DNA of 64,000 nucleotides from a virus (IMGVR_UViG_3300042197_003251:1-64000), one strand, 5' to 3'. Shown: positions 4,265 to 54,149, counted from the stretch's first letter. Numbers and translations: made by a program. Notes: generated by a model from the sequence alone, not told the origin.

Positions 4265-4624
4265 TCAAAAATTAATTGACTTAATTTCAATTTCAAAATT
4301 GTCTTTTACAAACTTATTTAAAGGTTCTTCCCACAAATGGCCAAACATACTATTTAAATGTCTTTCAAATTCCATTTCTAATCTAATAATTGGACTTTTT
4401 TCTTTCATATTTAATCCTTCTTGAGTATCATCACTCCAATATTCCGGCATGTAAATAACAAATAACTCTTCATATTCTGAATTTGATAATTCATAAATAC
4501 CTTCATACCCTCCAATTCCACCTTCAACTAACCCATATTCATCAAGGTCAATATAGTCCTCAATATAGTTGTATATTCGTTGGAATAACATTAAATGTTG
4601 TCTATTTGTTATTTTGTACTCCAT
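4265..4624 (-). CDS. ITxxQ-start phage protein, 119 aa
   Basis: It begins MEYKITNRQHLMLFQRIYNYIEDYID, the same layout as the next two genes and the gene at 9732-10247: a short basic start, (I/V)(T/S)xxQ, then a helix. The body is acidic and aromatic. The three adjacent genes look like diverged paralogues. Related start sequences are common in large marine-type phages and may be a head-targeting signal, although this copy lacks the Glu of the (I/L)xE step. Confidence 0.7.
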   Translation of the reverse strand: MEYKITNRQHLMLFQRIYNYIEDYIDLDEYGLVEGGIGGYEGIYELSNSEYEELFVIYMPEYWSDDTQEGLNMKEKSPIIRLEMEFERHLNSMFGHLWEEPLNKFVKDNFEIEIKSINF

Positions 4625-4625
4625 A

Positions 4626-4970
4626 TCACCAATCTATCCCTGGTCCTGAAGTTCTATTGTCAATTACGTTTCTTTCATTTACTGAATTCATTCCAATATA
4701 TCTTCTTAAATCATAACTTAAATTATATAACACTCCTTCAAAACTATATCTATTAGTATTTTTATAAATATCTACTAATATTACCCATCCTTCTTTTTTT
4801 TCAACATCAACAACTCTAATTTCATCTATTGAATCAACCTCGAATGCCTCATCATATGATAAATCACCATCTTCAGAATATTTTTTTAATATTTCTAATT
4901 CAGAGTTAATAAATTTCTGTATTAGATTAATTGTCTTTTCTTTTTGTTTGGTGCTAATTCTATATATCAT
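4626..4970 (-). CDS. ITxxQ-start phage protein, 114 aa
   Basis: It begins MIYRISTKQKEKTINLIQKFI and ends GPGIDW. It is followed one base later by the 4265-4624 gene, so the two are probably co-translated. The body has IRVVDVEKKEGWVILVDIYK. It is probably a paralogue of its two neighbours. No enzyme motif is seen. Confidence 0.7.
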   Translation of the reverse strand: MIYRISTKQKEKTINLIQKFINSELEILKKYSEDGDLSYDEAFEVDSIDEIRVVDVEKKEGWVILVDIYKNTNRYSFEGVLYNLSYDLRRYIGMNSVNERNVIDNRTSGPGIDW

Positions 4971-4978
4971 AGTATCCT

Positions 4979-5359
4979 TTAATAATTTGCTGGTTTTTGT
5001 CTATAAGGATAAATTGACGCTTCATCAATATCAACATCATATGTTTCGCTAACCCAATCCGAAATAATATCAATAACTTTAGTTTCTCTTATCTTAATAG
5101 TTTTACGGAGTTCATCAACTATATCAGGGTGAATGTGTATCATTCCAACACCATAATGAGGATTATCGTCATCGTCTGTTCCTGGCCCATACCAAAAATA
5201 TGTAATCATATTTTTTCCATAATTGTCGTGCAAATTAAGTGTATAAGCATCAGGATTATAATTACATTCTTCTTTTTTAGTATTTGATTTAGAAAACATA
5301 CCATCCAAATATTTGTAAATTATTTGGTGTAATTGGTTTTTTGTAATTACATATCTCAT
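4979..5359 (-). CDS. ITxxQ-start phage protein, 126 aa
   Basis: It begins MRYVITKNQLHQIIYKYLDGMF. A TATTTATA element lies three bases before the ATG. The second half contains YGVGMIHIHPDIVDELRK and an acidic C-terminus. First gene of the three-paralogue block; function unknown. Confidence 0.7.
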   Translation of the reverse strand: MRYVITKNQLHQIIYKYLDGMFSKSNTKKEECNYNPDAYTLNLHDNYGKNMITYFWYGPGTDDDDNPHYGVGMIHIHPDIVDELRKTIKIRETKVIDIISDWVSETYDVDIDEASIYPYRQKPANY

Positions 5360-5405
5360 AACTATAAATACAAGTAATCCATAAAAATGAGTTTAACTAA
5401 TAATA

Positions 5406-6518
5406 CTAATCTTCTTTTACCTTATCCCAAAGTCTAACCGCCTTCCTAAAAAGTTCATCGGCTCTATCGTTAAATCTTTTTTTCCAGTATATGAAAAATT
5501 GTCTTGGGTTATTTCTTATTGAAGGACTTAATCCTCTAAAGTTATTTACAGTAACACCATTTTGTCTTAAAGATTCAGATATATAATTTAAGGCTTCGTT
5601 CCAATTTTCCAAATTTTCCGATACTTCTTGAGCCCTTTTTTGTGAATAAACCAAATCAAAAAAACTTTCAATTTTTGTAATTGAGTCTATCATATCATCA
5701 ACCGAAAAACTTTTTAAAAAATTAATTTCTTTCGATAGTTCAGTTTTTTCAAACTCTCGCATAAAGTCATCATAATCTTTAATACCCTTTCCTTTAAGTG
5801 TATAATAAAGTTGGGGAGCTCTTGCTTGTTGTTCAAATCTTAATGACAAATATAATCTTCGTAAAAATCCATTCCATTCATTATTAATATTACTCCTCAT
5901 AATTTGTTGGAGTGAATTATACGTAGACTCTTTTCCATATCCGACTTTACCTGTCGATTTATTTATTTTAAATAATTGATAAGCATGGAATACTTCATGT
6001 GAAACAACCGCCGATAATTCATTCCTAATTGATTCAAAATCTTTAGTTTGTGATTGTCTCATATGGATTGTAAATTCATATGTACTAATATCATAAACTT
6101 CCCCTTTGGTTTTTAATGTTCTAATTTTAAAATCTTTCGGAACAAAAATATGTGAAGCCTCAATCATCGGGGACTTGTATTTCTTATCATCAAAAAACTC
6201 ATCAGGTAATACTTTAACAACTACAAATATTTTGTTTCTATAAGTTGGAAACTTTCTCCATTCCTCTTTATCGTATTTCGGTGAGTTTTTCAGGTATTCC
6301 CAACTTTCTTTAGGGGAAATTTCAAAACTATACTCATAGCCCTCCAATTCTTGGAATTGAGGTTCGTTAAATTCAAGAACGTCTGGTGCTTGACTTTTAA
6401 TGTTATTTTCAATTACACTAATAATTAAATCAGTATAAATGTGAACGACCATATCAATGTCGTCTGGTACACCTAAAGCTTCGGTTAAAAGAAGTTTATT
6501 TACTTTTTTTAACTTCAT
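5406..6518 (-). CDS. HExxH protein with N-terminal LLLTEA tag
   Basis: The product is 370 aa. The N-terminus MKLKKVNKLLLTEALGV contains L-x-E-A, like T4 internal-protein sequences cleaved by the prohead protease. A zinc-peptidase-like HEVFH (in VVSHEVFHAYQ) lies near residue 175, and the C-terminal half is helical and basic. If the motif is catalytic this could be a packaged metalloprotease; no third zinc ligand can be assigned by eye. The start overlaps the 3' end of the 41-aa gene upstream. The length and the clean HExxH in a helical context are the support for the call. Confidence 0.7.
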   Translation of the reverse strand: MKLKKVNKLLLTEALGVPDDIDMVVHIYTDLIISVIENNIKSQAPDVLEFNEPQFQELEGYEYSFEISPKESWEYLKNSPKYDKEEWRKFPTYRNKIFVVVKVLPDEFFDDKKYKSPMIEASHIFVPKDFKIRTLKTKGEVYDISTYEFTIHMRQSQTKDFESIRNELSAVVSHEVFHAYQLFKINKSTGKVGYGKESTYNSLQQIMRSNINNEWNGFLRRLYLSLRFEQQARAPQLYYTLKGKGIKDYDDFMREFEKTELSKEINFLKSFSVDDMIDSITKIESFFDLVYSQKRAQEVSENLENWNEALNYISESLRQNGVTVNNFRGLSPSIRNNPRQFFIYWKKRFNDRADELFRKAVRLWDKVKED

Positions 6519-6621: not shown

Positions 6622-6639
6622 ATTGATAAATATATAATA

Positions 6640-7184: not shown

Positions 7185-7191
7185 ATGAATA

Positions 7192-7199
7192 CAAATATA
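7192..7199 (-). promoter_or_regulatory. TATATTTG promoter of the 545-nt RNA
   Basis: TATATTTG on the minus strand upstream of the noncoding block. Predicted start about seven bases downstream, near 7184. Confidence 0.6.
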
Positions 7200-7625: not shown

Positions 7626-7629
7626 ATAC

Positions 7630-8888: not shown

Positions 8889-9728
8889 ATGGTTAATCAA
8901 TTAATTAAAGAAGAATTAAATAGGATTAAAACTTTGATGGGTCTAATCACAGAAGAAGAAAAAAATGGAACATTTAAAGTTGTTTTCAGAACAGATAATG
9001 GAATAGATTTGGGAGCTTGTATTGGAATTGCTCACGGTGGAACTATTGATTTACCTGAAGAAGTAATTAAAAGAATTAATAATATAGATAATCTACATTT
9101 CATTGCGGAAGGAGCTGCGGCGAAGAACCCCGAACTTGAGCCAGGAATGATGAAATTTATTGATGAGCATTTTTCTGGTTATAAAATTGAAGATAAATCT
9201 TGGGACGAAATAACAGAAGAGCAAGGTTTGGGTGTTGGTAATCCAAAATATAATATTAATTATGTTTTTATGCAACACAAATACAACAATTACATAGACG
9301 ATTATTCGTATTCAGGTGGTACAATGTTGGATGCATTAGCAAAAACCACAAGACCTGAATTTCCTCCGAATTCGCCAACCGAACCAGAAGAAAGAAAAAA
9401 ATGGTTAAAATATCATATGGAACAATCAGGATTTCTTGAAAATCTTGAACAACCTTATAATAGAGAAAAATTATATGATTTATTAACAGAAATGGAAGAA
9501 ACTGTTTATCCTGAAGGACAGCAAGTTCCGAACAAAAAAACTTATTTTGGTGTCATGCAACAAAGTATTGAAGATGAAAGAAATAAAACAATATACGATT
9601 TAATGGAAAACGGTGGAGTGTCAATTGCAGGAGAAGGACATGTAGATGAATTAAAACAACAATTTCCTGATTTGGAATTCCTACCGCAAAAAAATGAAAA
9701 GACAGACTTTGTTGGTCAGCATAAATGA
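8889..9728 (+). CDS. Tagged cargo-type protein, 279 aa
   Basis: The N-terminus MVNQLIKEELNRIKTLMGL continues ITEEEK, giving two (I/L)xE steps, and the ELNRIKTLMG piece resembles the C-terminus of the 51042-52427 protein. Near the C-terminus, SIAGEGHVDELKQQFP is weakly reminiscent of GxGH segments in TraB/Tiki-type proteins, which I do not regard as proof. The gene is on the opposite strand to its neighbours and sits between duplicated copies of a neighbour's 3' end, so it looks inserted. Confidence 0.75.
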   Translation: MVNQLIKEELNRIKTLMGLITEEEKNGTFKVVFRTDNGIDLGACIGIAHGGTIDLPEEVIKRINNIDNLHFIAEGAAAKNPELEPGMMKFIDEHFSGYKIEDKSWDEITEEQGLGVGNPKYNINYVFMQHKYNNYIDDYSYSGGTMLDALAKTTRPEFPPNSPTEPEERKKWLKYHMEQSGFLENLEQPYNREKLYDLLTEMEETVYPEGQQVPNKKTYFGVMQQSIEDERNKTIYDLMENGGVSIAGEGHVDELKQQFPDLEFLPQKNEKTDFVGQHK

Positions 9729-9731: not shown

Positions 9732-10247
9732 TTACATATAGTCAACACTTATGTGTCCGATTGTAACTCCCAGATTAGAATAAAATGAAAAGAATTTATT
9801 AAAAATTATTTCATTAACTTCACTATTAATTTCCCAACCAAATTTATCATTTGCCAAAGCTTCTTCCAAAGATATGGTTGGTTCATTATCATCAAATATT
9901 AAGGTTACAGTTCCCCCTTTTTTTACTCTAATGTACAGATAAACTTCTTCATTTACAACAACTTCATCCAATATAATTTTAAAATTATACCCCCCATCCA
10001 CAATATCAAAAGTTTCACCTTCATCTTTTTTCAAATACTGAATAAACTTTTCATTCCCTCCGAACCATTCAATCATCAATTCCAAAAAATAAGGTTCAAT
10101 TTCATACGCCGTTTTAGAGTCAAGTCCAATTAGTTTATACATTTGTCTAGATAAACTTGGTCCATTAACATTCCAATATTTAAAAAGAATTGGTTTAAAT
10201 TTATCAACAATTTTATTAAATTGATTTTCAGTAATTATAAATTTCAT
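9732..10247 (-). CDS. ITENQ-start phage protein, 171 aa
   Basis: Start at ATG 10247: MKFIITENQFNKIVDKFKPI. A longer frame adds a short Leu-rich start that overlaps the upstream TATTTATT element and is rejected. The (I)TE step matches the tag found in other proteins of the window. The body is acidic, with a beta-rich centre (NFKIILDEVVVNEEVYLYIRV). Its 3' end is duplicated at 8799-8864. Confidence 0.72.
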   Translation of the reverse strand: MKFIITENQFNKIVDKFKPILFKYWNVNGPSLSRQMYKLIGLDSKTAYEIEPYFLELMIEWFGGNEKFIQYLKKDEGETFDIVDGGYNFKIILDEVVVNEEVYLYIRVKKGGTVTLIFDDNEPTISLEEALANDKFGWEINSEVNEIIFNKFFSFYSNLGVTIGHISVDYM

Positions 10248-11797: not shown

Positions 11798-11807
11798 TTA
11801 TTTTTAG

Positions 11808-11879
11808 TAGTCAGAATAGGACTCGAACCTACATCTCCCATTTACAATAATGAGGCGTTACCAATTACGCTACCTGACT
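11808..11879 (-). tRNA. tRNA, probably Thr (UGU), with odd anticodon arm
   Basis: Acceptor AGTCAGG/TCTGACT with A73, D arm GCGT...ACGC and T arm GTAGG TTCGAGT CCTAT are all clear. The anticodon arm fits either CTCAT/ATGGG with an eight-base loop TATTGTAA or a six-pair stem with a six-base loop. The UGU reading aligns with normal Thr tRNAs, but the loop size is non-canonical. Confidence 0.7.
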
Positions 11880-18179: not shown

Positions 18180-18911
18180 TTACTTTTCTATTCTTGGGGG
18201 TTTAATTTTTTTTGTTTTTAAAACTTTTAATACCAAATCTCCTGTTCCCCATGTTTTCAGGTCAGAACTACATCCCGCAATTTTTTCAGCCCCAACGTCA
18301 TTTCTTAAACCATTAATAATACAAGGATATCTTTTATTTAAAAGTGTTTTAATTGTCGCCTCAATTCCAATATCTTTTGATGAATAATTTTTAACTCCAA
18401 CTTTATTGTAGTCAGATATTCTTGGGTCATCTTTCATGCCTTGTGTGGTGTTAAATGGGTTGTTTTTTGCCTTAGCTCCTTCTGCCTGTCTCCAAGCATA
18501 AAGAAATTTAAAATTTTCATCCGTGTATGGAGCATCAATTCCGTCAAGTATTTTTTTGTAAAAATCTTTGTCTGCAACTCCCTCTACATCAAATTTTGTT
18601 TCAACTTCTTTTTCTGAACTTTTTTCTCCCCTTGAAGTTTTTTCTTTTTTATAACCGACTTCTTTTTCTAATTCATCTCTTTCACTGGAAGTTAATTTTT
18701 TTAATTTATCTAACACACCTTCTTTATCATCCGAATCATCCGAACCTGTTATTTTGTTTATCATATCAATTGCCTTTCCACCTTTATCTTTTATAAAATT
18801 ATAAAGGTCAACAAACCAAAGCCCTTCATTAAGATTTTTATCTTCATTAATTTGATATAAATTTCTTATTTGTTTTTTTTCTTCTTCTGATATGATAATT
18901 CTTTTGCCCAT
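18180..18911 (-). CDS. Tagged muramidase/transglycosylase-like lysin
   Basis: The 243-aa protein starts with the tag MGKRIIISEEEKKQIRNLYQ, then a charged linker, then a lysozyme-like domain: WRQAEGAKAKNNPFNTTQG, GVKNYSSKDIGIEATIKTLL and NDVGAEKI. AEG...NNPxNTT is typical of phage virion-associated peptidoglycan hydrolases. The tag suggests a virion component rather than the free endolysin. TATTTATAAATA upstream supports late expression. Confidence 0.78.
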   Translation of the reverse strand: MGKRIIISEEEKKQIRNLYQINEDKNLNEGLWFVDLYNFIKDKGGKAIDMINKITGSDDSDDKEGVLDKLKKLTSSERDELEKEVGYKKEKTSRGEKSSEKEVETKFDVEGVADKDFYKKILDGIDAPYTDENFKFLYAWRQAEGAKAKNNPFNTTQGMKDDPRISDYNKVGVKNYSSKDIGIEATIKTLLNKRYPCIINGLRNDVGAEKIAGCSSDLKTWGTGDLVLKVLKTKKIKPPRIEK

Positions 18912-22460: not shown

Positions 22461-23324
22461 TTAAATTAAATTAACCAAATCTTTAAATTGTTGTTTGTTG
22501 TCTTTAATCCATTTTAACATATCTGGACGAATTTTGTTTGAGTATGGTCCAAATATTTTTGAAATTTCATTTTCTTCTTGATTAATTGTTAAAAATTGGT
22601 CATATTCTTTTTGTGAAATTCTTGGAACCACAATATCAAATGTGTTTCCCTGTGTTCTAACCGCCGAACTTTTAATTCTAATTTGATGGCCTCCCTTTTG
22701 TTTTGGTGCCGAGCAATTTGAAGCTCTTGAAAAAACTTCAACAAATTGTTCTTTTGTAAAATAATGACTTCTTATTCTGTCAGGAAGTTTTGTTGAAACA
22801 CAAACAACATCGGCAATTATATTTTGTAGTATTAGTTTTTTAATGTCAACAATTTCTGGGTCTTCAATTAAAAATAAATTTGTTTCATTGTAGTCTGACA
22901 TTACCTTATTTACAATTTGATTTACGTTTTCTCCCATCTTTGATAAAACTGTTTTGTATCCACCAATAACTGGACTTTCTCCATCATCTTCAATATACTT
23001 TTGTTCAACCGTACCAATATCAACTCTGTAGTCCCAACTTCCTGATTTATCCTTGTTCAATTCTCCATTATAAATTCCACACATAAGTCCTTCAAAAGAA
23101 TGCCCTCTAATTTCTTTATATTTAACAATCCTGTTAATATAATCTTTCATTCTCATCTTATTAACCGTATCCAACTGGTTTAGGTCAGCAGTTTTTCCAA
23201 ATTCAAATGACATTCCATGTACCATCATAATTCTTTTAATAACTTCAGTTGCCTCTTGTTTAACAATAGGAATTGGGTTATATAAATAAAATTTGTTCTT
23301 ATCTTCTTTAATTACTTTTTTCAT
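22461..23324 (-). CDS. Tagged protein, possible PD-(D/E)xK nuclease
   Basis: The 287-aa protein begins MKKVIKEDKNKFYLYNP, with a VIKED step. RGHSFEGLMCGIYNGEL followed by SWDYRVDIGTVEQKYIED has the spacing of a restriction-endonuclease-like core (Glu...Asp...ExK), but is not a certain match. It overlaps the next gene by four bases and forms an operon with it. Packaged nuclease is an inference. Confidence 0.6.
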   Translation of the reverse strand: MKKVIKEDKNKFYLYNPIPIVKQEATEVIKRIMMVHGMSFEFGKTADLNQLDTVNKMRMKDYINRIVKYKEIRGHSFEGLMCGIYNGELNKDKSGSWDYRVDIGTVEQKYIEDDGESPVIGGYKTVLSKMGENVNQIVNKVMSDYNETNLFLIEDPEIVDIKKLILQNIIADVVCVSTKLPDRIRSHYFTKEQFVEVFSRASNCSAPKQKGGHQIRIKSSAVRTQGNTFDIVVPRISQKEYDQFLTINQEENEISKIFGPYSNKIRPDMLKWIKDNKQQFKDLVNLI

Positions 23325-23632
23325 TTTCCAATAACTAATTCATTATAATTAAGCGTGTCCATTCCTTTCATGTCATCTGTTATTTCGTCATACATATAAG
23401 CTTTAACAACACTTGTAATTGATTGTTCGGCTTGAGCAATTTTGCTTTCCATCCAATCATCAAGTTCCTCATCTTCGGGCATTTCTTCCCACATTTTATA
23501 TGCAAGAGTTGCAATAATGAATAATTGTTGTTTTGCCATATAATTTCCATCCTTCCCCTCCTTAACTTCACCTTTGGTGATTGTTTCTTGGAGTTTCTTT
23601 AATTGGGATTCACTTAATATAAATTTTGCCAT
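23321..23632 (-). CDS. ILSES-tagged small protein, 103 aa
   Basis: It begins MAKFILSESQLKKLQETITK, close to the start of the 9732-10247 protein (KFIITENQFNKI). The rest is an acidic helical domain. A CTATTTATATAAAAA element precedes it, a late-type promoter. It probably heads an operon with the 22461-23324 gene. Confidence 0.75.
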   Translation of the reverse strand: MAKFILSESQLKKLQETITKGEVKEGKDGNYMAKQQLFIIATLAYKMWEEMPEDEELDDWMESKIAQAEQSITSVVKAYMYDEITDDMKGMDTLNYNELVIGK

Positions 23633-28298: not shown

Positions 28299-29664
28299 CA
28301 AATTCATTTTGCAACATCTTTAAAAACTTGATGTATGCGGCATCTTCTTTTTCGGGGTCATATTTGTATTTTCCTTGTGGTGGTCTTTTTGCTCTTCCAA
28401 AGAAATTAAGACCAGATATATTGGTTATACACTTATGACCTCCACTATTTGCTTGAATAATGTCCCAAGCCGGTACTGAAATTTTATCAAGAGCTTCCCA
28501 TTCATTTTCATCCAATTTTTCAGATGGTTTTTCCATTAAGTTTTTAATCTCAAGAAGATATTTTGTCCCATTTTCCATATCCAAAAATTTTTCTCCATAA
28601 ATGGCGGCAAAATCTTTAAATGTGAACCCGACTGAATCTTCACCTATGCTTCCTTCTGAAACCCATTTTATTGTTGATAATGGAACTTTTCTATCTTTTA
28701 ATTGACCTTCCCATTTTGATAATACTTCTTGAGCAATATCACCAAGATTAACTCCCTTTAATTCCCTTTCTTTTTTAAATGGATTACACGATGCTTGTAG
28801 AAGCCCTAATGGCCATGCAATAACAAGAAAATCTGCTTCAGGGTTGTTTCTAAATGGTGTATATCTATCATAAGAACCTGGTTTTATCATACTACCTCCA
28901 CCATATTGAACTATAATATTGTCCTGAACGCTGGGGTATGATTTCATTCTTTCAACATAATCTTCTTTGTTTTTTTCAAGTGATTGTAAATTAGCATAAC
29001 CTTTTTCTTCCATTATTTCCTTAATCTTTAAAAATAAATTAAGGAGTGAAGGTTTTGACTCCATAACAAGTCTCTCAAGAAACTGAGGTTTGTTTTTAAA
29101 TGCCAGTAATAATTTATTGGTAACTAAACCAAGCATCATTCTATTTTTTCTTGCCGATATGTCTTTGTCAAACTTATAAACATAATTCATCACAATCTCA
29201 GGTGTAATTTCATTTTTGGCAAAATCGGCGCTGTCAACCATTGAAATTGTTGCAACGTCTTCTGGCGTAAAAATTTCACTAGGTGAAACTATTTGGGATA
29301 TGGTTTCAACGTTTGACCTAGCTTGTCTGAAACTAGTAGTTTGGGTTTCTTCAGCGCCTGCCTGTCTATCGTGGTGGTCCAAGTGAATTTGAAACATTGG
29401 TTTTCCGTGAGCAAAATCACATAAACAATAAAGAATTTTTTCGTTGGGGTCTGATTTTTTAAGTGACCATTCTTTATCCCCGTATTGTATAACTTGAGCT
29501 CCTATTACTTTAAATCCATATTTTTCAAAGTAACTTTTCATTCCCAACCCACTGACCACTCCATCCAAATCTTGGTGAAACACAATCATTACCTTATCAA
29601 ACTCTTCTCGTAGTTTATTAATATTTTTAAGTCCTGATTCTTTAATTAGCATTTTCAATTTCAT
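28252..29664 (-). CDS. DHH/DHHA1 phosphoesterase with N-terminal tag
   Basis: The 470-aa protein has MKLKMLIKESGLKNINKLRE (tag LIKES), then VFHQDLDGVVSGLG, LCDFAHGK and IHLDHHDR of the DHH domain, and a C-terminal DHHA1-like NSGGHKCITNISGLN. Relatives include RecJ and NrnA/GdpP nucleases. It may degrade oligonucleotides or cyclic dinucleotides; the latter would fit counter-defence. The tag suggests it travels in the virion, an inference. Confidence 0.82.
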   Translation of the reverse strand: MKLKMLIKESGLKNINKLREEFDKVMIVFHQDLDGVVSGLGMKSYFEKYGFKVIGAQVIQYGDKEWSLKKSDPNEKILYCLCDFAHGKPMFQIHLDHHDRQAGAEETQTTSFRQARSNVETISQIVSPSEIFTPEDVATISMVDSADFAKNEITPEIVMNYVYKFDKDISARKNRMMLGLVTNKLLLAFKNKPQFLERLVMESKPSLLNLFLKIKEIMEEKGYANLQSLEKNKEDYVERMKSYPSVQDNIIVQYGGGSMIKPGSYDRYTPFRNNPEADFLVIAWPLGLLQASCNPFKKERELKGVNLGDIAQEVLSKWEGQLKDRKVPLSTIKWVSEGSIGEDSVGFTFKDFAAIYGEKFLDMENGTKYLLEIKNLMEKPSEKLDENEWEALDKISVPAWDIIQANSGGHKCITNISGLNFFGRAKRPPQGKYKYDPEKEDAAYIKFLKMLQNEFVKILQEKIESSKNQG

Positions 29665-31401: not shown

Positions 31402-31426
31402 AAGGGGATAAACCCCCTTTTTTTTT
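31402..31426. terminator. Terminator between CAP and OmpA-like genes
   Basis: AAAGGGG/CCCCTTT stem followed by T8. Usable in both directions between convergent genes. Confidence 0.85.
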
Positions 31427-32552
31427 ATTGTTGTGCGTAGGTAGTTCCCCAATTTGTAATAATTTGTTGGTACATATCTTCACCAACCTCTTTTCCAGGT
31501 ATGCTCCAATCAGTTCCTTCTCTACCTTCTCTATATCTGTAAGAATAATTTGGCCATTTATCATAAAAAGCCTGACAATTTTCTTTATCTTTTCCTGAAG
31601 TTTCATACTGAAAACATTTCATTGCGCCACCTGCAAATTCTCCAGTTCCAAGTTCAGCTTGACTTCCAGTCCAAACAATTCCTCTTTTGGTATCCGATGG
31701 AGGTATAGGAATCCATCTTGTGGTTCCTTTAACAACATTATCACCATTATTAGAATAATACAAAGCCTTCCAACCATTATTTGGGCACATATATACACCG
31801 TTCGTTTGAGTGTAAAATCCACTAACACAAAACTCAACAAATCCTATATTAGGGAGATTACCTATCGGTAATACTCTATATGGTTGGAATGATATATCTC
31901 TTCTTGTCTCAATATTTACATCACCTTTTGCACTTATTCTTATTTTTACAAATTGATAAGGTTGATATTGGGGTTCGGTGCTTTTATTTGTACCAGGAAT
32001 ATATTCAGGTCCTTGATGAGCCCCTGTTATATCTTCAGAGTATTTTACTTGAGATTGTAATTCAGGGTCCAAAATGGTATCTAAATATGTTTTTATCACA
32101 TTATTTCCTGTGTTTGCTCTTTTTTTAGCCAATTCAGTATTAAAAGTTTTTCTTTCTTCATCTGTTTTTCCAGGACCTGATTTAGAACTCCCTGCAATTA
32201 CTGTTACTGAAATCTCAGCACCCAAAAAATCCGTACCATCAAACCAATTTTTAATTTTAGTTTCATCTTCTTCTGAAAGTTTGACGTATTTATCTTCGAA
32301 TTTACCAGGGTCAAACTCAACATTAAGATTTACTAATAAATCTGGTTTTTTTACTTTTTTTACTGATAATATTTTACCATCCTCAGTCATTGATTCTCCA
32401 GGTTGGAGTTTTGGTGGCTCGTGTTTTTCCAATAAAACTTTTCGGATTTTATTTTCTAAAGTCTCAAAATAATTATTTTCATTTCTAACACTTTCATGAA
32501 GTGTTAATATTTGACTTTTTTCTGATTCTGAAATATATGTTCTGTTATTCAT
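31425..32552 (-). CDS. ISESE-tagged virion-type protein with OmpA-like part
   Basis: The 375-aa protein begins MNNRTYISESEKSQILTLHE. The centre (VIAGSSKSGPGK then ELAKKRANTG) resembles the OmpA C-terminal fold with G-x-S and N-x-x-L-A-xx-R-A. The C-terminal 150 aa are Trp/Tyr/Gly-rich, as in tail or fibre proteins. It is directly downstream of a second OmpA-like gene and probably in the same operon. Confidence 0.7.
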   Translation of the reverse strand: MNNRTYISESEKSQILTLHESVRNENNYFETLENKIRKVLLEKHEPPKLQPGESMTEDGKILSVKKVKKPDLLVNLNVEFDPGKFEDKYVKLSEEDETKIKNWFDGTDFLGAEISVTVIAGSSKSGPGKTDEERKTFNTELAKKRANTGNNVIKTYLDTILDPELQSQVKYSEDITGAHQGPEYIPGTNKSTEPQYQPYQFVKIRISAKGDVNIETRRDISFQPYRVLPIGNLPNIGFVEFCVSGFYTQTNGVYMCPNNGWKALYYSNNGDNVVKGTTRWIPIPPSDTKRGIVWTGSQAELGTGEFAGGAMKCFQYETSGKDKENCQAFYDKWPNYSYRYREGREGTDWSIPGKEVGEDMYQQIITNWGTTYAQQ

Positions 32553-32561: not shown

Positions 32562-33107
32562 TTATTTTGGTAATTGAAAATTAACTTTAACCCACTGGTC
32601 CTGTAAATACTTTGGGTCATCTGGATTTCCTTCGTATGGTATTTTTCCCTCCTCATATCTACCAGAAAATCCAGTAAAATTACTATCATCAATTAAATTA
32701 TTTCTTTCGAGTTCCGATTTTATATAATCTCTAATGTTACTCAATCTTTTTTTTGCATAACCCCATCTATCAACACCTTTAGCCGCAGGAATTAATGATT
32801 CAGAAGCAACAGTACCGAAACCCATAATTTTTTTATTTTTACTTTTTAAGTAATTTATAATACCCTTTACAAATTCATCAAACTCATTTTTGTTAGTTAT
32901 TGAATTCACATCGGTTTTACCCTTTTCAAAAAAAAATTGGTTTTTCAAATTAGGTAAAACTTCGTGGTGCGTTTTTGTGAATTGTTGACTCATACTCACT
33001 TCAGCTTCTGGTTCAGTTCCCTCAACCTCGAAAAGATAATTTCTTTTAGTTGCATTTATATGCATTTTAAGTATTCTTTCTCTTTCCTCATTCAAGATTT
33101 TGAGCAT
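32562..33107 (-). CDS. ILNEE-tagged OmpA-like protein
   Basis: The 181-aa protein begins MLKILNEERERILKMHINAT. FFFEKGKTDVNSITNKNEFD and the later AKKRLSNIRDYI follow the OmpA-family pattern for a peptidoglycan-binding fold. GTATTTATATTATAA precedes it, a late-type element. It is probably a virion component. Confidence 0.7.
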   Translation of the reverse strand: MLKILNEERERILKMHINATKRNYLFEVEGTEPEAEVSMSQQFTKTHHEVLPNLKNQFFFEKGKTDVNSITNKNEFDEFVKGIINYLKSKNKKIMGFGTVASESLIPAAKGVDRWGYAKKRLSNIRDYIKSELERNNLIDDSNFTGFSGRYEEGKIPYEGNPDDPKYLQDQWVKVNFQLPK

Positions 33108-34632: not shown

Positions 34633-35395
34633 TATTTTGTTTTTTTAAATTTTCAATTGTTTTTCTTTGTATTAAATAACTCAATACTTTTCTTTTTGAT
34701 GCGGGTATTAACGAAGCTTCAAAAGGAAAATCATAAGTTGCCGTTATAAGAAAAACTGGTAATTTTTTTCTTCCATCGTGAAGTTCTATCAATGTATTAA
34801 TATCGTCCAAATTTTCGGGAATGTCAAGTTTTGTCAAATTCATTTTTGTGTCAATTGTCAACCTGTCCCTTTTTTCAATATCATATATCCATAAATGATT
34901 TTCTTTTCCTTTTTTCATATGGATAAAACCTGAATTAAGATTGAAATTCTTTTCGTTCTTGGTAATTTGAACTGATATTGAATCGTAAATAATTGTATAG
35001 ACTGATTTTACGATGTTGAAATAATTTAATATTTTTTGTCCAGCAAATTTAACTATCTCATTAAATTCATCAAACTCTTTTTCTGATTTTATCTCTAAAG
35101 GTTTATATTTTAATTCTGATATCAAAATTTCATCATCAATATTTTGAAATACTTTGGTAAAGTATAAAGATTTAAATTCATTTGATATTGATTGAAGATT
35201 TGCCAAATGAAGTGAAATTTCTGTGTATATTGGGTAAATTTCAAACTTCTCTATCTTTTTGTCGGCGTATTGAAGAAAATCATAAAGAAGGTATTGTTTA
35301 TGCTCAAAATCAATTGGTTCGGATAAAATCCAATTTGTTTCAAGTTTAAACATTGGTTTTTCTTTCTTTTTTCTATTTTTTTCAGTTGTCACCAT
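34625..35395 (-). CDS. Phage hypothetical protein, 256 aa
   Basis: After a Lys-rich start the conserved part begins MFKLETNWILSEPIDFEHKQ, then LLYDFLQYADKKIEKFEIYP. Proteins with this pattern recur in large environmental phages. The start shares its ATG base with the stop of the 35395-36726 gene. No enzyme motif is seen. Confidence 0.75.
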   Translation of the reverse strand: MVTTEKNRKKKEKPMFKLETNWILSEPIDFEHKQYLLYDFLQYADKKIEKFEIYPIYTEISLHLANLQSISNEFKSLYFTKVFQNIDDEILISELKYKPLEIKSEKEFDEFNEIVKFAGQKILNYFNIVKSVYTIIYDSISVQITKNEKNFNLNSGFIHMKKGKENHLWIYDIEKRDRLTIDTKMNLTKLDIPENLDDINTLIELHDGRKKLPVFLITATYDFPFEASLIPASKRKVLSYLIQRKTIENLKKQNNE

Positions 35396-36726
35396 TAATT
35401 GTGTCTAAATATATAATAATCTTCTCCATTAAATTCAATAGTGTCATAATCACTATTGTAACTTGACATTTGACCATAATCTTCGTTTCTCATAAGATAA
35501 TTGGTTAGTTCATCTTTGTCAACATATTTTTTTATATCATACCCCATATTACTTAAAAATTCATCGTAATTGTCAACATAGTAATCTACAGTTTCTTCAA
35601 CTTTTTCATCAATCGCATCTTCACTATAATCTCCATCAGGTGAGTCTTTAATTTCATCAATTTCAACTTCTATTTCTGAAATTCTATCTGTTGTTTCATC
35701 ATATTCTTCATCTTCTGGATTCATTCCTTCCAATTTTTCTTCAAGTTGTGATTTTTCTGTTTCAAGATTATTTATTTCTTCTTCTTGGGCTCCACTTAAT
35801 TCTTTATCTTCATCACTTAAATAAGCTTCAGGATTGTCCCTAACATCATTTTCATAAACGTCTTCAATATCACTTCTTAATTCATCCATATCTATACAAT
35901 CTTCAATAACGTGTCTATTAAATGCTTCTAAACCAACATCGTCAATATATTGTCTCCAATAGTCCTTAAAAGCGACATCAACTTCATTTGAATTGGCAAT
36001 AAAATATTCTTCACCTTCTGAATCTGTAATCATTGATTTAAAAGCGGCAAGACCATACATTTCACCATCAGGAATTAAATCATAAACATCCCCATAATCT
36101 TTATCGTTTAATTCATCTATTTGACTTTCAATTTGATTTATTTGTCTTTCTATTTCATCGTATTCATCTCCAACACTATCAAGTTGTTCTTGTCTAATTT
36201 CAAGTTCAGATTTTCTATTTTCAAGTTCATCAATTCTTTCTTGTAAATCTTTGGGTCTTAATTCAACTCCGTCTCTATTTTTTAAGTATTCAAAAAGAGC
36301 ATGAGCCTTTGCATTATAACCATCAGATAAATCATCCCAATCACCATCCTCTCTTCTTGATTGTGCAAGTGCTTTTATTTGCGCCTCTTCTTTAGCTTTC
36401 TTAATTCTCCATCTTTTTGAGTTATAATCAGAAACATATCCAGTTGTTTCAATTCCTTCCAAAGAAGCAATTTCTGTCCCTGAAATATCAAGCCTTCCAG
36501 TAACTTTAACTATTGGTCCTAAATTTTGAATTTTTGGGTATAATGATAAGTCAAGAGGTCCGTTAACAACTAATTTTTTTCCCCTGAATTTTGGTATTCT
36601 TGAAAGTCCATTTAAATTACCTGACATTAATTTTAAGAATTCTAACACTTCATCTTGAGTAATGAATGCATAATCTTCTTCGGATTGTTCTTTTAATATT
36701 TTTGATACCAAATTAATTAAGTTCAT
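35395..36726 (-). CDS. ILKEQ-tagged large acidic protein, 443 aa
   Basis: It begins MNLINLVSKILKEQSEEDYA. A short LRR-like stretch (LDLSLYPKIQNLGPI, GRLDISGTEIASLEG) is followed by two coiled-coil regions rich in Glu/Asp and a Tyr-rich acidic C-terminus. ATATTTATAAGTAAAA upstream is late-type. It may be an internal head or tail protein; its function is unknown. Confidence 0.72.
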   Translation of the reverse strand: MNLINLVSKILKEQSEEDYAFITQDEVLEFLKLMSGNLNGLSRIPKFRGKKLVVNGPLDLSLYPKIQNLGPIVKVTGRLDISGTEIASLEGIETTGYVSDYNSKRWRIKKAKEEAQIKALAQSRREDGDWDDLSDGYNAKAHALFEYLKNRDGVELRPKDLQERIDELENRKSELEIRQEQLDSVGDEYDEIERQINQIESQIDELNDKDYGDVYDLIPDGEMYGLAAFKSMITDSEGEEYFIANSNEVDVAFKDYWRQYIDDVGLEAFNRHVIEDCIDMDELRSDIEDVYENDVRDNPEAYLSDEDKELSGAQEEEINNLETEKSQLEEKLEGMNPEDEEYDETTDRISEIEVEIDEIKDSPDGDYSEDAIDEKVEETVDYYVDNYDEFLSNMGYDIKKYVDKDELTNYLMRNEDYGQMSSYNSDYDTIEFNGEDYYIFRHN

Positions 36727-43479: not shown

Positions 43480-44838
43480 TTACTCTTCTTTCCTAAAATA
43501 AAGTCCATTTCCAATATCGTCAAACTTCTCAACAATCCCATTTGGTAATTTAAGATTTGAGTCACAGTTTTGTATATTAATAAATGTAAGTTCTCTCATT
43601 TGACTAATTGAATCAGGTAAATTCTTTAATTCTTTATTATTAGGTAATGACAAGAAATTAAGTGAAGAACATTTTGAAACTTCGTCTGATAATGACTTAA
43701 CAATATTGTCAAGCATCAATGTTTCCAAACTTTGGAATCTTGCGATTGACGGTGGAATGTCAATAGCCGCAGATGATTTTTTATTTTCAATAATTAAACT
43801 AGTAATATCATCAGGTAGATTATCAAATATTTCAGTTGCACCATAAAGAGCAATGAACTTACCTGCCGCGCTATCAGGAATTTGAATTGTAACTTTTCTT
43901 TCTCCACTTGAAACAAGTCCTTTCGCAAACTCAGGCTTAAAGTAATCTTTCAATTCTTTAAGTTTACCATTCAACATATCTACAAGATTTACTTGGTGGT
44001 CATGTCTATCCATAAATTGTGAATCAGGGAAGTGGAATTGGTATCTTTCAACTGGAAGACCTGATACTTTACCCAAGTCAGAAGATTCATTTGGAAGGAT
44101 TACATAAAGTGGTCCTTTACCCAAATATCTTTTCCACCAATCAGCTCCAGGTGCAGATGTACACCATCTTGATTCACCTTTTTCTGATTCGTGTGAACCA
44201 CCATAGAAACAAGCCGCATCTTTTTGAAGTTGCGATGTTCCTTCAATTTTAACTACGGTCCAGTTTTGTCCACGAAAAACTACATCAGCACCAGGGTGTT
44301 CATAACTTTTTTTAGCCTCTTCTTTTTCAGCCTTAGATGCTTTTTGTTTTTCCAAACTTAAATCTTTAACAAGTTCAAAAACATCATCTTTTGATAATTT
44401 TGCAATATCCCTTTTTTCTTGTGGGAATGTTCCTTTAAATCTTTCAAATTTTTTGAGGTCATCTGTTACTTTATACAAATCTTCCAAAAACAAATTCTGA
44501 TACGCCTTTACAGCCTGACTATAAGCCCTTTGGTCTTCAGGATTTGCCTGAATATTTGATGGCTTCATAAAGTTTTTAATAAGCCAGTTAGTGTATTTAC
44601 CAACTTTAACATTTTCCATGTCTTCAACTGAAGCCGTATCAATGTTAACTTCTGTACCTCTTGGAACTACAGTTGTAGGGTCAGCAAAGATTAATGCCTT
44701 TAATACCTCAAAAGGAATTTTCTTTGGGTCGGGTTTTGATTTCCCTTCAGGTGATGACTTTTGTACCAAAGTATCATATAATACTTTAAACCTTGAATTC
44801 TCAATAATTAACGATTTTAAAATATTTGTAAATTTCAT
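43480..44838 (-). CDS. LIIEN-tagged protein with leucine-rich repeats
   Basis: The 452-aa protein begins MKFTNILKSLIIENSRFKVL. The middle has GESRWCTSAPGADWWKRYLG and GPLYVILPN, a segment also seen in other phage virion proteins. The C-terminal 110 residues are leucine-rich repeats (SLETLMLDNIVKSL, LNFLSLPNNKELKNLP, LTFINIQNCDSNLKLP). ATATTTATATATAAAA upstream is late-type. It is a candidate packaged or adhesive protein. Confidence 0.75.
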   Translation of the reverse strand: MKFTNILKSLIIENSRFKVLYDTLVQKSSPEGKSKPDPKKIPFEVLKALIFADPTTVVPRGTEVNIDTASVEDMENVKVGKYTNWLIKNFMKPSNIQANPEDQRAYSQAVKAYQNLFLEDLYKVTDDLKKFERFKGTFPQEKRDIAKLSKDDVFELVKDLSLEKQKASKAEKEEAKKSYEHPGADVVFRGQNWTVVKIEGTSQLQKDAACFYGGSHESEKGESRWCTSAPGADWWKRYLGKGPLYVILPNESSDLGKVSGLPVERYQFHFPDSQFMDRHDHQVNLVDMLNGKLKELKDYFKPEFAKGLVSSGERKVTIQIPDSAAGKFIALYGATEIFDNLPDDITSLIIENKKSSAAIDIPPSIARFQSLETLMLDNIVKSLSDEVSKCSSLNFLSLPNNKELKNLPDSISQMRELTFINIQNCDSNLKLPNGIVEKFDDIGNGLYFRKEE

Positions 44839-47771: not shown

Positions 47772-48698
47772 CTACAATCTGGTGTGTTTAACATATAATC
47801 TGACATACAAGTCCCCATTCTCATTTGGGTAACCTTTTCCTTTAACTTTAAGTGGAACGCTTGTGTCCACAGTTTGTGGCATCTTAATTTTTAGTTCTCC
47901 GTGTGGATGCGGAATTTTAATCTCATCCAAATTCAAATCATTTATTGATAAGAAATTATTAAAAACCAAATCACCGGCGACTTTTTCAAAACCATCTTGT
48001 TGATTAACATTAATTTTGAAAATCATATCTCCAAACATTCCATTTGCAAAATCTCCCATAGATTGCGCTCTAACCAATTGTCCATCAGAAACTCCAACTG
48101 GTAAATTCATGCTTATTGTTTGATGTTCATCAATTCTTCCATCACCTCCGCAATGATTGCAAGTTGATTTAAAATGAAACCCTCTTCCACCACATGCCCC
48201 ACAAGCTGTTTGAATTATGTTTTGCATAAAATGATTTCCAACTCTTTGCATAATCCGGCCAGAACCTCCACAGTTTGAGCAGGTTTGTCTTTCCCCTCCT
48301 TGCCCACCACAAGGGTCACAATTTATTTTTCTTGTAAAATTAACATCAATTTTCTTTCCCAAAAATGAATCAACCGCTCCAACCTGAATGTCCATAACTC
48401 TGTCTGGTGCTCTTCTTTGTTGTTGTCCCCCAAAGATATTTGAAAATATGTCAAACGGATTTCCGCCCCCACCCATATCAAAACCAAACTGACTAAAAGG
48501 ATTGTTGTTTCTATTATCATATTCATTTTTTTTCTGTTCGTCTGACAGAGTTGAATAAGCTTCATTAATTTTTTTAAATACGTTTTCGTCCCCACCTTTA
48601 TCAGGATGAAATTCTTTTGATTTATTTCTAAACGCTTTTTTTATTTCATCTTGTGTTGCGGTTTCCTGAACCCCAAGAATATCATAATATGTTTCCAA
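47772..48698 (-). CDS. dnaJ: DnaJ co-chaperone
   Basis: The 308-aa protein has a J domain with HPDKGGDENVFKKINEAY, a short G/F region, four CxxCxGxG zinc repeats (CDPCGGQG, CSNCGGSG, CGACGGRG, CNHCGGDG) and a C-terminal substrate domain shorter than in cellular type I DnaJ. It would stimulate the phage DnaK (18986-20866) or host DnaK. It is far from dnaK in the genome. Confidence 0.95.
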   Translation of the reverse strand: METYYDILGVQETATQDEIKKAFRNKSKEFHPDKGGDENVFKKINEAYSTLSDEQKKNEYDNRNNNPFSQFGFDMGGGGNPFDIFSNIFGGQQQRRAPDRVMDIQVGAVDSFLGKKIDVNFTRKINCDPCGGQGGERQTCSNCGGSGRIMQRVGNHFMQNIIQTACGACGGRGFHFKSTCNHCGGDGRIDEHQTISMNLPVGVSDGQLVRAQSMGDFANGMFGDMIFKINVNQQDGFEKVAGDLVFNNFLSINDLNLDEIKIPHPHGELKIKMPQTVDTSVPLKVKGKGYPNENGDLYVRLYVKHTRL

Positions 48699-51041: not shown

Positions 51042-52427
51042 TTATTGAGTCTTTTTGTTATAACCCATCATATTTTTCATTTTCATCATTTCTTCAGATA
51101 AAATTTGTTTTTCTTCTGTAGATTCACCAAGTTTTTTGAACATGTTATCAAGTTTACCTGATTTAGTATTTTCACCAGCAATATCAACTGGTTGTTTTAC
51201 TCTGTTGTAACTTTTTCTTTTTTCTTGATTATATAAACCTAATTTTCTTCTTTTGTTAAGTTTTTTCCCTAACCCTGTATCTTCAGCGTTTGCATACTTT
51301 GGTGAATTTCCTGTCATTTCAGAACCCTCAATTGTTTTTTCTAACCAATCTTCATTGTATCCAACTTCATCTGGGTCCAAATCTAACATTCCACCACCAT
51401 AAGCAAAAGTATCAATATACTCCTCAACAGCGTCTGATGGGATATAACTCTTTTTATCCATTTTAGCAAGTTGTCCATTACCTTTTGGAAAATGTTTTGG
51501 GTTTTCTTCAAAACTTCCTTTTGAACCTGCCTTAACGTAATCCCTCATTTTCTTAAAAGACTCTTGGTTTGCTTTTTTATTAATATCGTCATCTTTTTTA
51601 TGAACTCTATCATATTCAACCATACCTTTTGACCTACCACCTGATGACTTTAAATTTGTTTTCTTTTCCTCAATAATGATTTCTTCAATCATACTAACAA
51701 GTTCGTTTTCGGATAAGGTAAGTTCTTCTCCACCAAAATTAATTGTATATTTATATGATTCATTTTTCACATCAAATTCTTTATTACCAACTTTAAATGT
51801 GCCTTTACCTTCCTCTTTCGCCCTTGCAAGTGCTCCAGTAAAAGCGTTTCCTTCTTCCATTTCATCGCCCTCAATTGATTCTTTAGTTTCTTTTTTATTA
51901 CTCCTTAACACCTCAAAGTCTTTTGCATCTATTTTATTTGTAGGCTTTGCCTGTTTTGCAATATATTTTTGTCCTTTAGAGTATTCTTCATCTTCATCAT
52001 CGTCTTCATCGTCCTCTTCGCCCTCATAGTCATATTTTTTCTTTAAACTTGCAGGAAATTTTTCACCAGGATGTTTTTTAGTGTAAGCCCTTTTTAATGC
52101 CTTTCTAAATTTTTCACCTTCTTTCATTTCACCACAATCCCCTTCCATACATTCTTTTTCTTGTACATAATCAAACTCACCTGACATAACATCAGTTTCT
52201 TCTTCAAGTTCAATATCTGATAATGAATCATCAGTATCCATATTTAACTTTTTATCTAATAATTTTTTAAATCTTCTATAGTCTGGCATATCTTCCTGTT
52301 CATAATCATAATCTTCAGGACCAAAATCCTCATCCATTTCACCATTTATTTTTTTTGTAAGTTCTTCCGCCTTCTCATTTAAAGACTCCATTAGAACTTT
52401 TTTTACGATGTTATCTATTTCTCTCAT
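51042..52427 (-). CDS. VLMES-tagged acidic core or scaffold-type protein, 461 aa
   Basis: It begins MREIDNIVKKVLMESLNEKA. The middle has very acidic stretches (DDEDDDEDEE) mixed with basic ones. The C-terminus QILSEEMMKMKNMMGYNKK resembles the N-terminal tag of the 8889 protein. Such charge patterns and (I/L)xE steps are typical of prohead core or internal proteins. GTATTTATATAAAAA upstream is late-type. Confidence 0.72.
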   Translation of the reverse strand: MREIDNIVKKVLMESLNEKAEELTKKINGEMDEDFGPEDYDYEQEDMPDYRRFKKLLDKKLNMDTDDSLSDIELEEETDVMSGEFDYVQEKECMEGDCGEMKEGEKFRKALKRAYTKKHPGEKFPASLKKKYDYEGEEDDEDDDEDEEYSKGQKYIAKQAKPTNKIDAKDFEVLRSNKKETKESIEGDEMEEGNAFTGALARAKEEGKGTFKVGNKEFDVKNESYKYTINFGGEELTLSENELVSMIEEIIIEEKKTNLKSSGGRSKGMVEYDRVHKKDDDINKKANQESFKKMRDYVKAGSKGSFEENPKHFPKGNGQLAKMDKKSYIPSDAVEEYIDTFAYGGGMLDLDPDEVGYNEDWLEKTIEGSEMTGNSPKYANAEDTGLGKKLNKRRKLGLYNQEKRKSYNRVKQPVDIAGENTKSGKLDNMFKKLGESTEEKQILSEEMMKMKNMMGYNKKTQ

Positions 52428-52451
52428 TTGAATATTTTTTTATATAAATAC

Positions 52452-53300
52452 TTATTTTTTTGTGTTTTTTCTTACATCCTCAATAATAATTTTCATAATC
52501 AACTTTTCACTAATTCCGTATTGTTCTGCCAATTTTTTTGCTTTTTTCTTAACAATTGGACTTCTACTCAATTTAAGAGCGTTAATGTCCCCCTGATTGC
52601 AATAAGGGAATGTTTTACACTTCTTTTTAACCTGAACAAATGCTCCACCAGGTATTTGTGTTTTTGACCTACCTCTCCAATCTTTTGGACTCATAGATTT
52701 TGCTCCAAATGCCGGTCCTGAATATTGTCCAGAAGAAGATGAACTTGTCGCTTCCTTTGTTTCTTTTTTTTCAACTTTTTCTAATTTATCATAATAAAAT
52801 GGATTTTCTTTTAAATGGTCTAAAGCGATTTGTTTTGCTTTTGATATTCCCATATCGTGTTCCATTTCAACTTTTGTTCCTTTTTTAAATTGCGTTTGAA
52901 TTATTTCAAGCATTTTTTCAATCTTTTCCTTTTGACTTTTACCTTCAGCGTCTTTGGAGTGTAATCTTGCAAGGTCTTTTAATTTTGCAATTTCTGTTCT
53001 TTCTGCTTCAGTTAAATTTTCTTTTAATTTCTTTTTTCTTCCTTGACAATGGGCTCTCTGACTAAAACCTTTTGGGTTTTTACAATCAATACTTCTTTTG
53101 TATTTTTCAGACCATTTTTCTTTCATTTCTCCTGAAATTGGCGGTTCAAATGCGCCTGCTCCTCCACTACCAGTCGCTTCTTTATTTTCACTTTTTTTAA
53201 TCATATTTTTAATATCTCGTAAATCTTCTTGACTTTTTGAGTCAGTATTACTTGAAAATGCTTTATCAAGTGCTTTCATAGTATTTTTTTTTATATCCAT
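52452..53300 (-). CDS. Virion-type protein with DUF5872- and DUF5661-like parts
   Basis: The 282-aa protein has EATGSGGAGAFEPPISG (linker typical of phage structural proteins), KYKRSIDCKNPKGFSQRAHC (DUF5872-like), GTKVEMEHDMGISKAKQIAL (DUF5661-like) and a second EATSSSSSGQYSGPAFG linker. It ends KLIMKIIIEDVRKNTKK, a reversed-position (I)xE element. It belongs to the virion cluster. Confidence 0.72.
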   Translation of the reverse strand: MDIKKNTMKALDKAFSSNTDSKSQEDLRDIKNMIKKSENKEATGSGGAGAFEPPISGEMKEKWSEKYKRSIDCKNPKGFSQRAHCQGRKKKLKENLTEAERTEIAKLKDLARLHSKDAEGKSQKEKIEKMLEIIQTQFKKGTKVEMEHDMGISKAKQIALDHLKENPFYYDKLEKVEKKETKEATSSSSSGQYSGPAFGAKSMSPKDWRGRSKTQIPGGAFVQVKKKCKTFPYCNQGDINALKLSRSPIVKKKAKKLAEQYGISEKLIMKIIIEDVRKNTKK

Positions 53301-53301
53301 T

Positions 53302-53550
53302 TTATCTTACGTTTTTAATTCTTGGTTCCCAATAACCTCTTTGAGTCCACATAAATTGATAAAATTCAGAAAACATTTTTGCAACCAAATCTTTTACTTC
53401 AGTTCCAACTTTTCCTCTTTTGATTTCCTTATTAATTAAATCAACCATATGTTCTTCAAATTGTTTTAAAGTATTAGAAGCAAGAAAATCTTTTATTTCT
53501 TTTCTAGCAATTGTTTCTATTTCTTTTTTTTCAGAAGCTGTAAGTGCCAT
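53302..53550 (-). CDS. Phage hypothetical protein, 82 aa
   Basis: It begins MALTASEKKEIETIARKEIK, then IKRGKVGTEVKDLVAKMF and FMWTQRGYWEPRIKNVR, a pattern recurring in structural regions of large phages. It shares its start base with the end of the 53550 gene. Role inferred as virion-related. Confidence 0.72.
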   Translation of the reverse strand: MALTASEKKEIETIARKEIKDFLASNTLKQFEEHMVDLINKEIKRGKVGTEVKDLVAKMFSEFYQFMWTQRGYWEPRIKNVR

Positions 53551-54149
53551 TACTTATTAACTTTTTGTGATGTCTTTTTTCTACCAGCAATTACTTTAGC
53601 CCATTTTGATTTGAACTTTTCGTAATATGTCTGTAGTTTATTAATCATATCAAGGTAATTTTCGTCAACTTTCATCATTTGACCCGATATATAAAGTCCA
53701 TTACTCTCACCAATTGTGAAGTAAAACTCAACATCAAAATCAACTACAAGACCTGACCAGTCTGCGTTATTACTATATAAATTAAGCTGTCCAAAATTTG
53801 CCATATCTGACACTTCATTAACGAACTCGTCCATAGTTTCTTGAAACGCAATTTTATCATCAGTTGTTAGTTCAGTTTCTTTTTTTGAGTCTCCGTGAAT
53901 AACAAGAATTCCACCTGAAATTCTATAACCTTCACTAAAATCATTTGGTTTTCCTTCACTATCCTCAATATCTTGTTCTGTTGATTTAGGGACATTATAT
54001 CTTTGAATGTCTCTTGGACTATCTTCGTCTTCTGTAATCAAATATCCTTTTTTAATTTGACTAATATGTTCGGATATAATAGGATTACTACCATCTTTTA
54101 AATCGTTGATGGCTTTAAGTTGTTTTTTAATTAACTCAATTTGGTTCAT
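53550..54149 (-). CDS. Phage structural-region protein with LITED tag, 199 aa
   Basis: It begins MNQIELIKKQLKAINDLKDG, then IISEHISQIKKGYLITEDED, two (I/L)xE steps before residue 45. The body has a beta-rich domain (LYSNNADWSGLVVDFDVEFY) and a Lys-rich end. It overlaps the amidase gene by 14 nt. Likely a virion component. Confidence 0.7.
   Translation of the reverse strand: MNQIELIKKQLKAINDLKDGSNPIISEHISQIKKGYLITEDEDSPRDIQRYNVPKSTEQDIEDSEGKPNDFSEGYRISGGILVIHGDSKKETELTTDDKIAFQETMDEFVNEVSDMANFGQLNLYSNNADWSGLVVDFDVEFYFTIGESNGLYISGQMMKVDENYLDMINKLQTYYEKFKSKWAKVIAGRKKTSQKVNK

Follow-up and report, generated by a model that had tools for sequence, protein, structure and literature searches.

Exchangeable N-terminal tags ending in (I/L/V)-x-E as probable capsid-targeting propeptides in a T4-like Bacteroidota phage

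The window analyzed here, a stretch of 64,000 nucleotides, comprises bases 1–64000 of the 81,017-base IMG/VR virus record IMGVR_UViG_3300042197_003251; our subject is a set of N-terminal peptides, or tags, which end in (I/L/V)-x-E and precede proteins with unrelated bodies. Most genes of the window have homologues, arranged in the same order, in three large T4-like IMG/VR genomes: G001 of 304 kb, G003 of 290 kb and G007 of 233 kb. Among cultured Bacteroidota phages, Flavobacterium phage immuto comes closest in capsid protein (41% identity across the aligned portion). An initial annotation had quoted such peptides as a possible packaging signal, and each of those quoted sits at a true gene start. 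The segments are given below; arrows mark the putative cleavage point, and the tag classes and the upstream box TATTTAT are described further on.

4598..4624, minus strand: degenerate class B start MEYKITNRQ of protein 4265–4624; likeness by eye only, E missing
4944..4970, minus strand: degenerate class B start MIYRISTKQ of protein 4626–4970; the G001 homologue begins MKIIISESQ, E not conserved
5318..5359, minus strand: degenerate class B start MRYVITKNQLHQII of protein 4979–5359; likeness by eye, TATTTAT upstream
6480..6518, minus strand: tag MKLKKVNKLLLTE↓ of HExxH protein 5406–6518; E↓A[VL]GVP and HExxH kept in remote homologues of G001 and G003
8889..8954, plus strand: tag MVNQLIKEELNRIKTLMGLITE↓ of protein 8889–9728; the pattern recurs on two immuto proteins as MKKQILSEQFRRMQKLAGIITE↓S
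10227..10247, minus strand: class B start MKFIITE of protein 9732–10247; class B pattern recurrent in G001 arrays
18825..18911, minus strand: tag MGKRIIISEEEKKQIRNLYQINEDKNLNE↓ of lysin-like protein 18180–18911; two homologues, TATTTAT upstream
23304..23324, minus strand: possible tag MKKVIKE↓ of protein 22461–23324; strict motif match only
23609..23632, minus strand: class B tag MAKFILSE of protein 23321–23632; TATTTAT upstream, homologues begin MSKNFMITE and MAKYIFTE before a conserved body
29638..29664, minus strand: tag MKLKMLIKE↓SG of DHH-like protein 28252–29664; orthologue junctions LILE↓SG, ILVE↓SG, LIKE↓SG, LISE↓SG
32463..32552, minus strand: class A tag MNNRTYISESEKSQILTLHESVRNENNYFE of protein 31425–32552; class A profile 45 bits, the sequence itself being one of 32 from which that profile was made
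33027..33107, minus strand: class A tag MLKILNEERERILKMHINATKRNYLFE↓ of protein 32562–33107; class A DNA pattern, TATTTAT upstream
36688..36726, minus strand: class C tag MNLINLVSKILKE↓ of protein 35395–36726; orthologues with exchanged tags
44800..44838, minus strand: tag MKFTNILKSLIIE↓NS of protein 43480–44838; orthologue junctions SVIVE↓N, NIVKE↓N, RVIVE↓Q, TATTTAT upstream
51042..51110, minus strand: C-terminal tag-like segment KQILSEEMMKMKNMMGYNKKTQ of protein 51042–52427; by eye like the N-terminal tags of 8889 and immuto
52386..52427, minus strand: tag MREIDNIVKKVLME↓SL of protein 51042–52427; orthologue junctions VLLE↓SL, LVSE↓SL, VLTE↓TL, VLAE↓AI, TATTTAT upstream
54030..54149, minus strand: N-terminal segment ending KKGYLITE↓DED of protein 53550–54149; orthologues at the equivalent place MITE↓Q, LIKE↓D, LLTE↓Q, LIKE↓E, IVE↓E

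Orthologues, related tags elsewhere or the class A profile back the tags of proteins 5406, 8889, 18180, 23321, 28252, 31425, 32562, 35395, 43480, 51042 and 53550 (named by their first coordinate). The two homologues of 18180 keep I[ST]ExE...I and a second (I/L)xE, together with a conserved C-terminal domain and a variable linker. Protein 9732–10247 has a plain class B start, and its body has no homologue detected in the compared genomes; 22461–23324 likewise lacks a homologue there, and its VIKED match may be due to chance. The proteins around 51042–54149 may be core or scaffold components instead of cargo. A head-module protein of G003 (L190:15328–16281) resembles 51042 in combining an N-terminal tag with a class D-like extreme C-terminus, RITESHLVLLIKNILKEL.

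In its loose form, (I/L/V)xE, the motif is found within residues 2–13 of 26 of the 104 window proteins, compared with 22.8 in random internal windows, and within residues 2–23 of 38, compared with 37.7 internally. Equal frequency at internal positions was an outcome that the initial annotation had itself counted against a shared N-terminal signal, so the loose motif fails in that role; on its own, this short motif is not diagnostic. The strict motif [ILVY][ILV]xE[ESNDQAR] at residues 2–13 matches 12 window proteins versus 1.6 internally (maximum 6 in 300 draws). Because it had been picked after viewing the window, it was frozen before being applied to unseen genomes, where it matched 43 proteins in G001 (8.4 internally, maximum 17), 35 in G003 (8.2, maximum 17), 28 in G007 (5.9, maximum 12) and 35 in 150 kb of the 484-kb huge phage LR756508 (4.3, maximum 11), each count exceeding all random draws. 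The controls gave 2 versus 2.6 (crAss001) and 8 versus 6.0 (T4-like Enterobacter phage EcL22g). When proteins were clustered by body, from residue 36 on and with the first 35 residues excluded, 13.9 of the 133 body clusters at capsid-gene loci of the window's clade were tagged N-terminally versus 1.6 internally, and crAss-like capsid loci gave 1.8 of 134 versus 3.4.

The single tag proposed initially for the whole cargo set gives way to several interchangeable classes: class A, IxExE[KR]xRILxMHxxATxxxYLxE↓Q; class B, M[KR][FYI]IITE[NS]Q, frequently found in arrays, those of G001 among them; class C, MKELIRHIIKE↓E; and class D, MKKVIRLTESDLTRIVKRVINE↓N. The DNA pattern of the class A core occurs in at least 120 IMG/VR stretches, and 123 of 124 matches lie just past the start of an open reading frame, in front of many different bodies. 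The ten residues preceding E are basic and amphipathic, with a hydrophobic moment of 0.58 and a net charge of +1.4, versus 0.34 and −0.1 at internal matches.

The tag behaves as a module: the body and the (I/L/V)xE junction stay while the tag is replaced. Orthologues of 35395 carry a class D tag in G001, a tag of nine residues in G007 and other class C tags elsewhere. Across the clade capsid loci and G001, G003 and G007, a gene recognizable by its RYMFFSNL body shows 29 different N-termini, which fall into three classes and all reach an [ILVM]xE where the common body begins, and the gene preceding the terminase begins MVDKDLERLIRKIIKE↓APIDYGD, MKKKQIVRE↓APIDYGD or MAKKKLQE↓APIDYGD. The HExxH protein 5406 reads NKLLLTE↓ALGVP in the window and NNLLLNE↓AVGVP or SKKLISE↓AVGVP in remote homologues of 21–24% identity, in which the tags differ and the E↓A-x-G-V-P junction is invariant. 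Among 916 reciprocal pairs, whose comparisons are not independent, the N-terminal motif was conserved at flank identities of 20–35% in 67% of comparisons, versus 27% for internal matches.

A prohead protease gene was located in the syntenic relatives: G001, G003 and G007 each encode a gp21-type prohead protease (Peptidase_S77) and the gp23 major capsid protein. It was not found in the 81-kb record, a fragment in which neither the S77 protease nor the gp23 capsid gene is detected with the Pfam families searched. Among tag-bearing contigs longer than 100 kb, Peptidase_S77 is present in 15 of 17 and Gp23 in 16 of 17; the protease was found in all tag-bearing named phages tested, and crAss001 lacks it. 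The capsid protein of the clade has LINE↓A at the place of T4 FLTE↓A, E60-A61 being invariant in four sequences including immuto, and the scaffold-like protein encoded before it contains LVKESLNEQ near its N-terminus. A further 140-kb contig, fetched via the 51042 protein and not via a tag, has neither the protease nor the capsid gene. The capsid gene region of LR756508 holds many tagged genes; since the two S77 matches there lie in open frames of 576 amino acids, the protease of this phage may be enlarged or fused.

The sequence TATTTAT precedes 75 of 144 tagged versus 183 of 836 untagged genes (p = 7e-13) and tops an unbiased list of 7-mers; in the window, the counts are 9/16 and 14/87 (p = 0.001). 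It also precedes terminase, protease, scaffold and tail genes and may serve as a late promoter. A sigma-70-like protein encoded at 55982–56800, kept in relatives at 64–87% identity, is a candidate for late transcription from this box. Two other elements were considered and set aside: the T4-type late promoter TATAAATA is not enriched upstream of tagged genes (p = 0.12), and a Bacteroidota-type TAnnTTTG box does not separate tagged from untagged genes of the window.

A comparison with virion proteomics is offered by the T4-like cyanophage S-CREM2, for which a table of virion proteins detected by mass spectrometry (MS) forms part of the published record (PMC10665884). For the genes in the stretches covered, we found F[FILM]xE within 27 residues of the start in 6 of 25 MS-detected non-structural proteins, in none of the 18 structural proteins and in 3 of the 112 that were undetected (p = 0.0012), this pattern having been picked after the list was seen; the window-type motif gave 5/25 versus 4/112 (p = 0.010). 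The tagged proteins are a cytidylyltransferase (MKNFSSFLTE↓A), a kinase (MKRFDAFLTE↓E), an S-adenosylmethionine (SAM) hydrolase (MKDFDSFLEE↓F), a Cas9-like protein (RFASFMAE↓A) and two of unknown function. The Cas9-annotated nuclease is gp12 (L361:7704–10313) and the SAM hydrolase gp6 (3837–5081), both MS-detected. Homologues of the cytidylyltransferase have a tag-like start in 6 of 8 cyanophages; those of slurp01 and PAC2 miss the tag and begin directly with the enzyme. Cyanophage nucleotidyltransferases start with MKNFSSFLTE↓A, MKLFNQFFKE↓A, MKSFSQFLTE↓T, MKKFSAFLNE↓A or MRFRQFIIE↓A, retaining MKxFxxF.

A tandem array of about a dozen genes was noticed in phage Atu_ph07 (MF403008 39484–52173), mostly starting with M[KR]Wx[QD]L[TNI]E↓ and many with a YRGM-type body. 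It apparently lies in or adjoins the cluster of coding sequences 31–76, reported with 29 MS-identified virion proteins, and one member has a Zeta-toxin-like kinase domain (E = 1.5e-14). Pfam gives no support to an ADP-ribosyltransferase identity for the YRG proteins of Atu_ph07 and LR756508.

We conclude, with a probability of about 0.83, that these N-terminal segments form a much enlarged and diversified T4-type system of cleavable capsid-targeting propeptides. The analogy with T4 internal proteins, already drawn in the initial annotation, is strengthened by the enrichment of the frozen motif, the S77 protease and gp23 of the syntenic relatives and the retention of the junction during tag exchange, and further by late-gene-like upstream boxes and the T4-like tags on virion enzymes of the cyanophage. 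In such a mechanism, the N-terminal helix, short, basic and amphipathic, would bind the prohead core during head assembly and carry the attached unrelated protein into the head; the gp21-type serine protease would then cleave after (I/L/V)-x-E, removing the tag, and the mature protein would stay in the head to be ejected along with the DNA. We speculate, at somewhat less than even odds, that throughout this clade of large, T4-like phages of Bacteroidota the head is loaded with perhaps 30–60 different proteins, roughly one tenth of the proteome, via interchangeable N-terminal and sometimes C-terminal tag classes, and that these proteins are then injected into the host; in that case, the tag class might determine the order in which a protein enters the core, its place there or its copy number.

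Several observations weigh against the propeptide interpretation. No virion detection has been reported for any protein of the window's phage or its close relatives, and for S-CREM2 its authors (PMC10665884) note that abundant non-virion proteins may have been carried over; the F[FILM]xE pattern was, besides, chosen post hoc. Both the 81-kb fragment and the 274-kb tag-bearing contig G004 show neither protease nor capsid gene. Enrichment in the cultured relative immuto is weak (11 versus 6.3, maximum 12), about one strict match in five is expected by chance (about 8 of 43 in G001), and a thymidylate synthase is present among the scanned strict-motif proteins. At positions 4 and 7, where T4 has aromatic residues, the window tags mostly have Ile, Leu or Val. 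Many class B proteins have no clear second site; because the first E of this class is sometimes lost, as in 4626 compared with its G001 homologue, class B may work differently from the others.

An artefact of paralogous bodies, of Lys/Ile-rich starts in an AT-rich genome and of selective reading would fit the first-written motif, which is without enrichment in the window, and the quoted cases that have no homologues. It is nevertheless very improbable and largely refuted already: enrichment persists after body clustering without the first 35 residues and in unseen genomes, is absent from crAss-like phages of the same host phylum, and orthologues with unrelated tags keep the junction. Still more remote is an action of the conserved start at the level of mRNA or translation. 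The tags do stand at start codons and near shared upstream boxes, but tag-like segments occur at C-termini as well, and synonymous codons vary widely at conserved tag residues: across 84 distinct DNA versions of class A, six Leu, six Arg and four Thr codons are used, and this freedom argues that selection acts on the protein.

The tags could instead be docking signals that stay uncleaved and lead to the tail, baseplate, injection apparatus or an intracellular compartment, with the conserved E as part of a binding helix. Cleavage in the clade has not been seen so far, the first ITE of class B lies inside a conserved element, and C-terminal tag-like segments exist, all of which would suit docking. 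We regard it as unlikely, since the class and length of the tag change while the hydrophobic-x-E and the following body do not, which is how a protease site should behave; moreover, the capsid protein has the same (I/L)xE↓A at its expected cleavage point, and large tag-bearing contigs carry a T4-type protease.

The functions that had been assigned to the bodies fared unevenly. HExxH is kept in the peptidase-like protein 5406 and its two remote homologues. The DHH phosphoesterase assignment of 28252 finds a Pfam DHH match (E = 4.6e-4), which is weak and below the curated cut-off. Neither sequence searches nor a structure model bear out a lysin at 18180: AlphaFold2 gave a predicted local distance difference test (pLDDT) score of 58 for this protein (51 for 5406), and since Foldseek with this low-confidence model returned no meaningful match, the designation stays unconfirmed. 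Pfam and PHROGs yielded almost no matches for the window's tagged proteins, and PDB sequence searches with 18180, 28252 and 5406 no useful match. When the N-terminus of 32562 was compared with named phages by tblastn, nothing matched at E ≤ 10. Near its C-terminus, protein 43480–44838 weakly matches a leucine-rich repeat family (LRR_14), with an E-value of 2e-4 that falls short of the cut-off.

Elsewhere in the window, 18986–20866 and 47772–48698 encode DnaK-like and DnaJ-like phage proteins, recognized by sequence reading. At 11807–11879, adjoining a tRNA-Glu, ARAGORN lists a tRNA-like gene whose two-base anticodon is undefined. Just beyond the window, at record position 64970–69706, lies a gene for a protein of 1578 amino acids with long Thr/Pro-rich repeats.

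The proteins that a phage injects are the earliest to act on the host, and T4 IPI, an anti-restriction factor, is one example. They are hard to find because they have no fold in common, and a loading label readable from sequence would list them from genomes alone; here, the labels yield a list of proteins that the phage probably injects into its host. Only 11 Pfam families, with one member each, were matched by 90 tagged proteins, so the label points to many probable early effectors that are still unexplored. The tag also bears on the doubt expressed by the S-CREM2 authors as to whether the enzymes are truly internal to the virion: of six non-structural proteins that they name, four have a T4-like tag, and the other two are endolysins, which lay outside this comparison.

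The closest known system is the capsid-targeting sequence of T4 IPI, IPII, IPIII and Alt, where IPIII needs no more than its ten N-terminal residues to enter the head, and gp21 cuts them off after (I/L)xE (PMC9026906). T4 and the clade share a short N-terminal extension ending in (I/L)-x-E on unrelated proteins and an amphipathic hydrophobic pattern, and the window's syntenic relatives have, like T4, the gp21 protease and the gp23 capsid protein; T4 Alt is also cut C-terminally, and window protein 51042 has a tag-like C-terminus. In T4, however, about four cargo proteins carry nearly one sequence, with aromatic residues at positions 4 and 7 that the window tags do not keep, and it is for T4 that packaging is demonstrated; the clade has tens of tagged proteins per genome in several classes. 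The ejection proteins of phiKZ and SPN3US (PMC5694885) are similar in that many head proteins are cut by a prohead protease after Glu and some paralogues share N-termini. They belong to another lineage, and their motif is A-x-E or S-x-E, often after propeptides of more than 100 residues, unlike the clade's [ILVM]-x-E junctions, typically after 8–40 residues. The S-CREM2 virion enzymes (PMC10665884), namely the SAM hydrolase, Cas9-like nuclease, kinase and cytidylyltransferase, are alike in their MKxFxxFLxE-type N-termini and differ in having a single FLxE-type tag near that of T4, which the sections of the paper considered here do not mention. The principle, then, is already known as the T4 capsid-targeting sequence; within the literature searched, which leaves preprints and most subscription papers outside, what is new is its scale in T4-like phages of Bacteroidota, the interchangeable classes, and the label as a means of predicting injected proteins.

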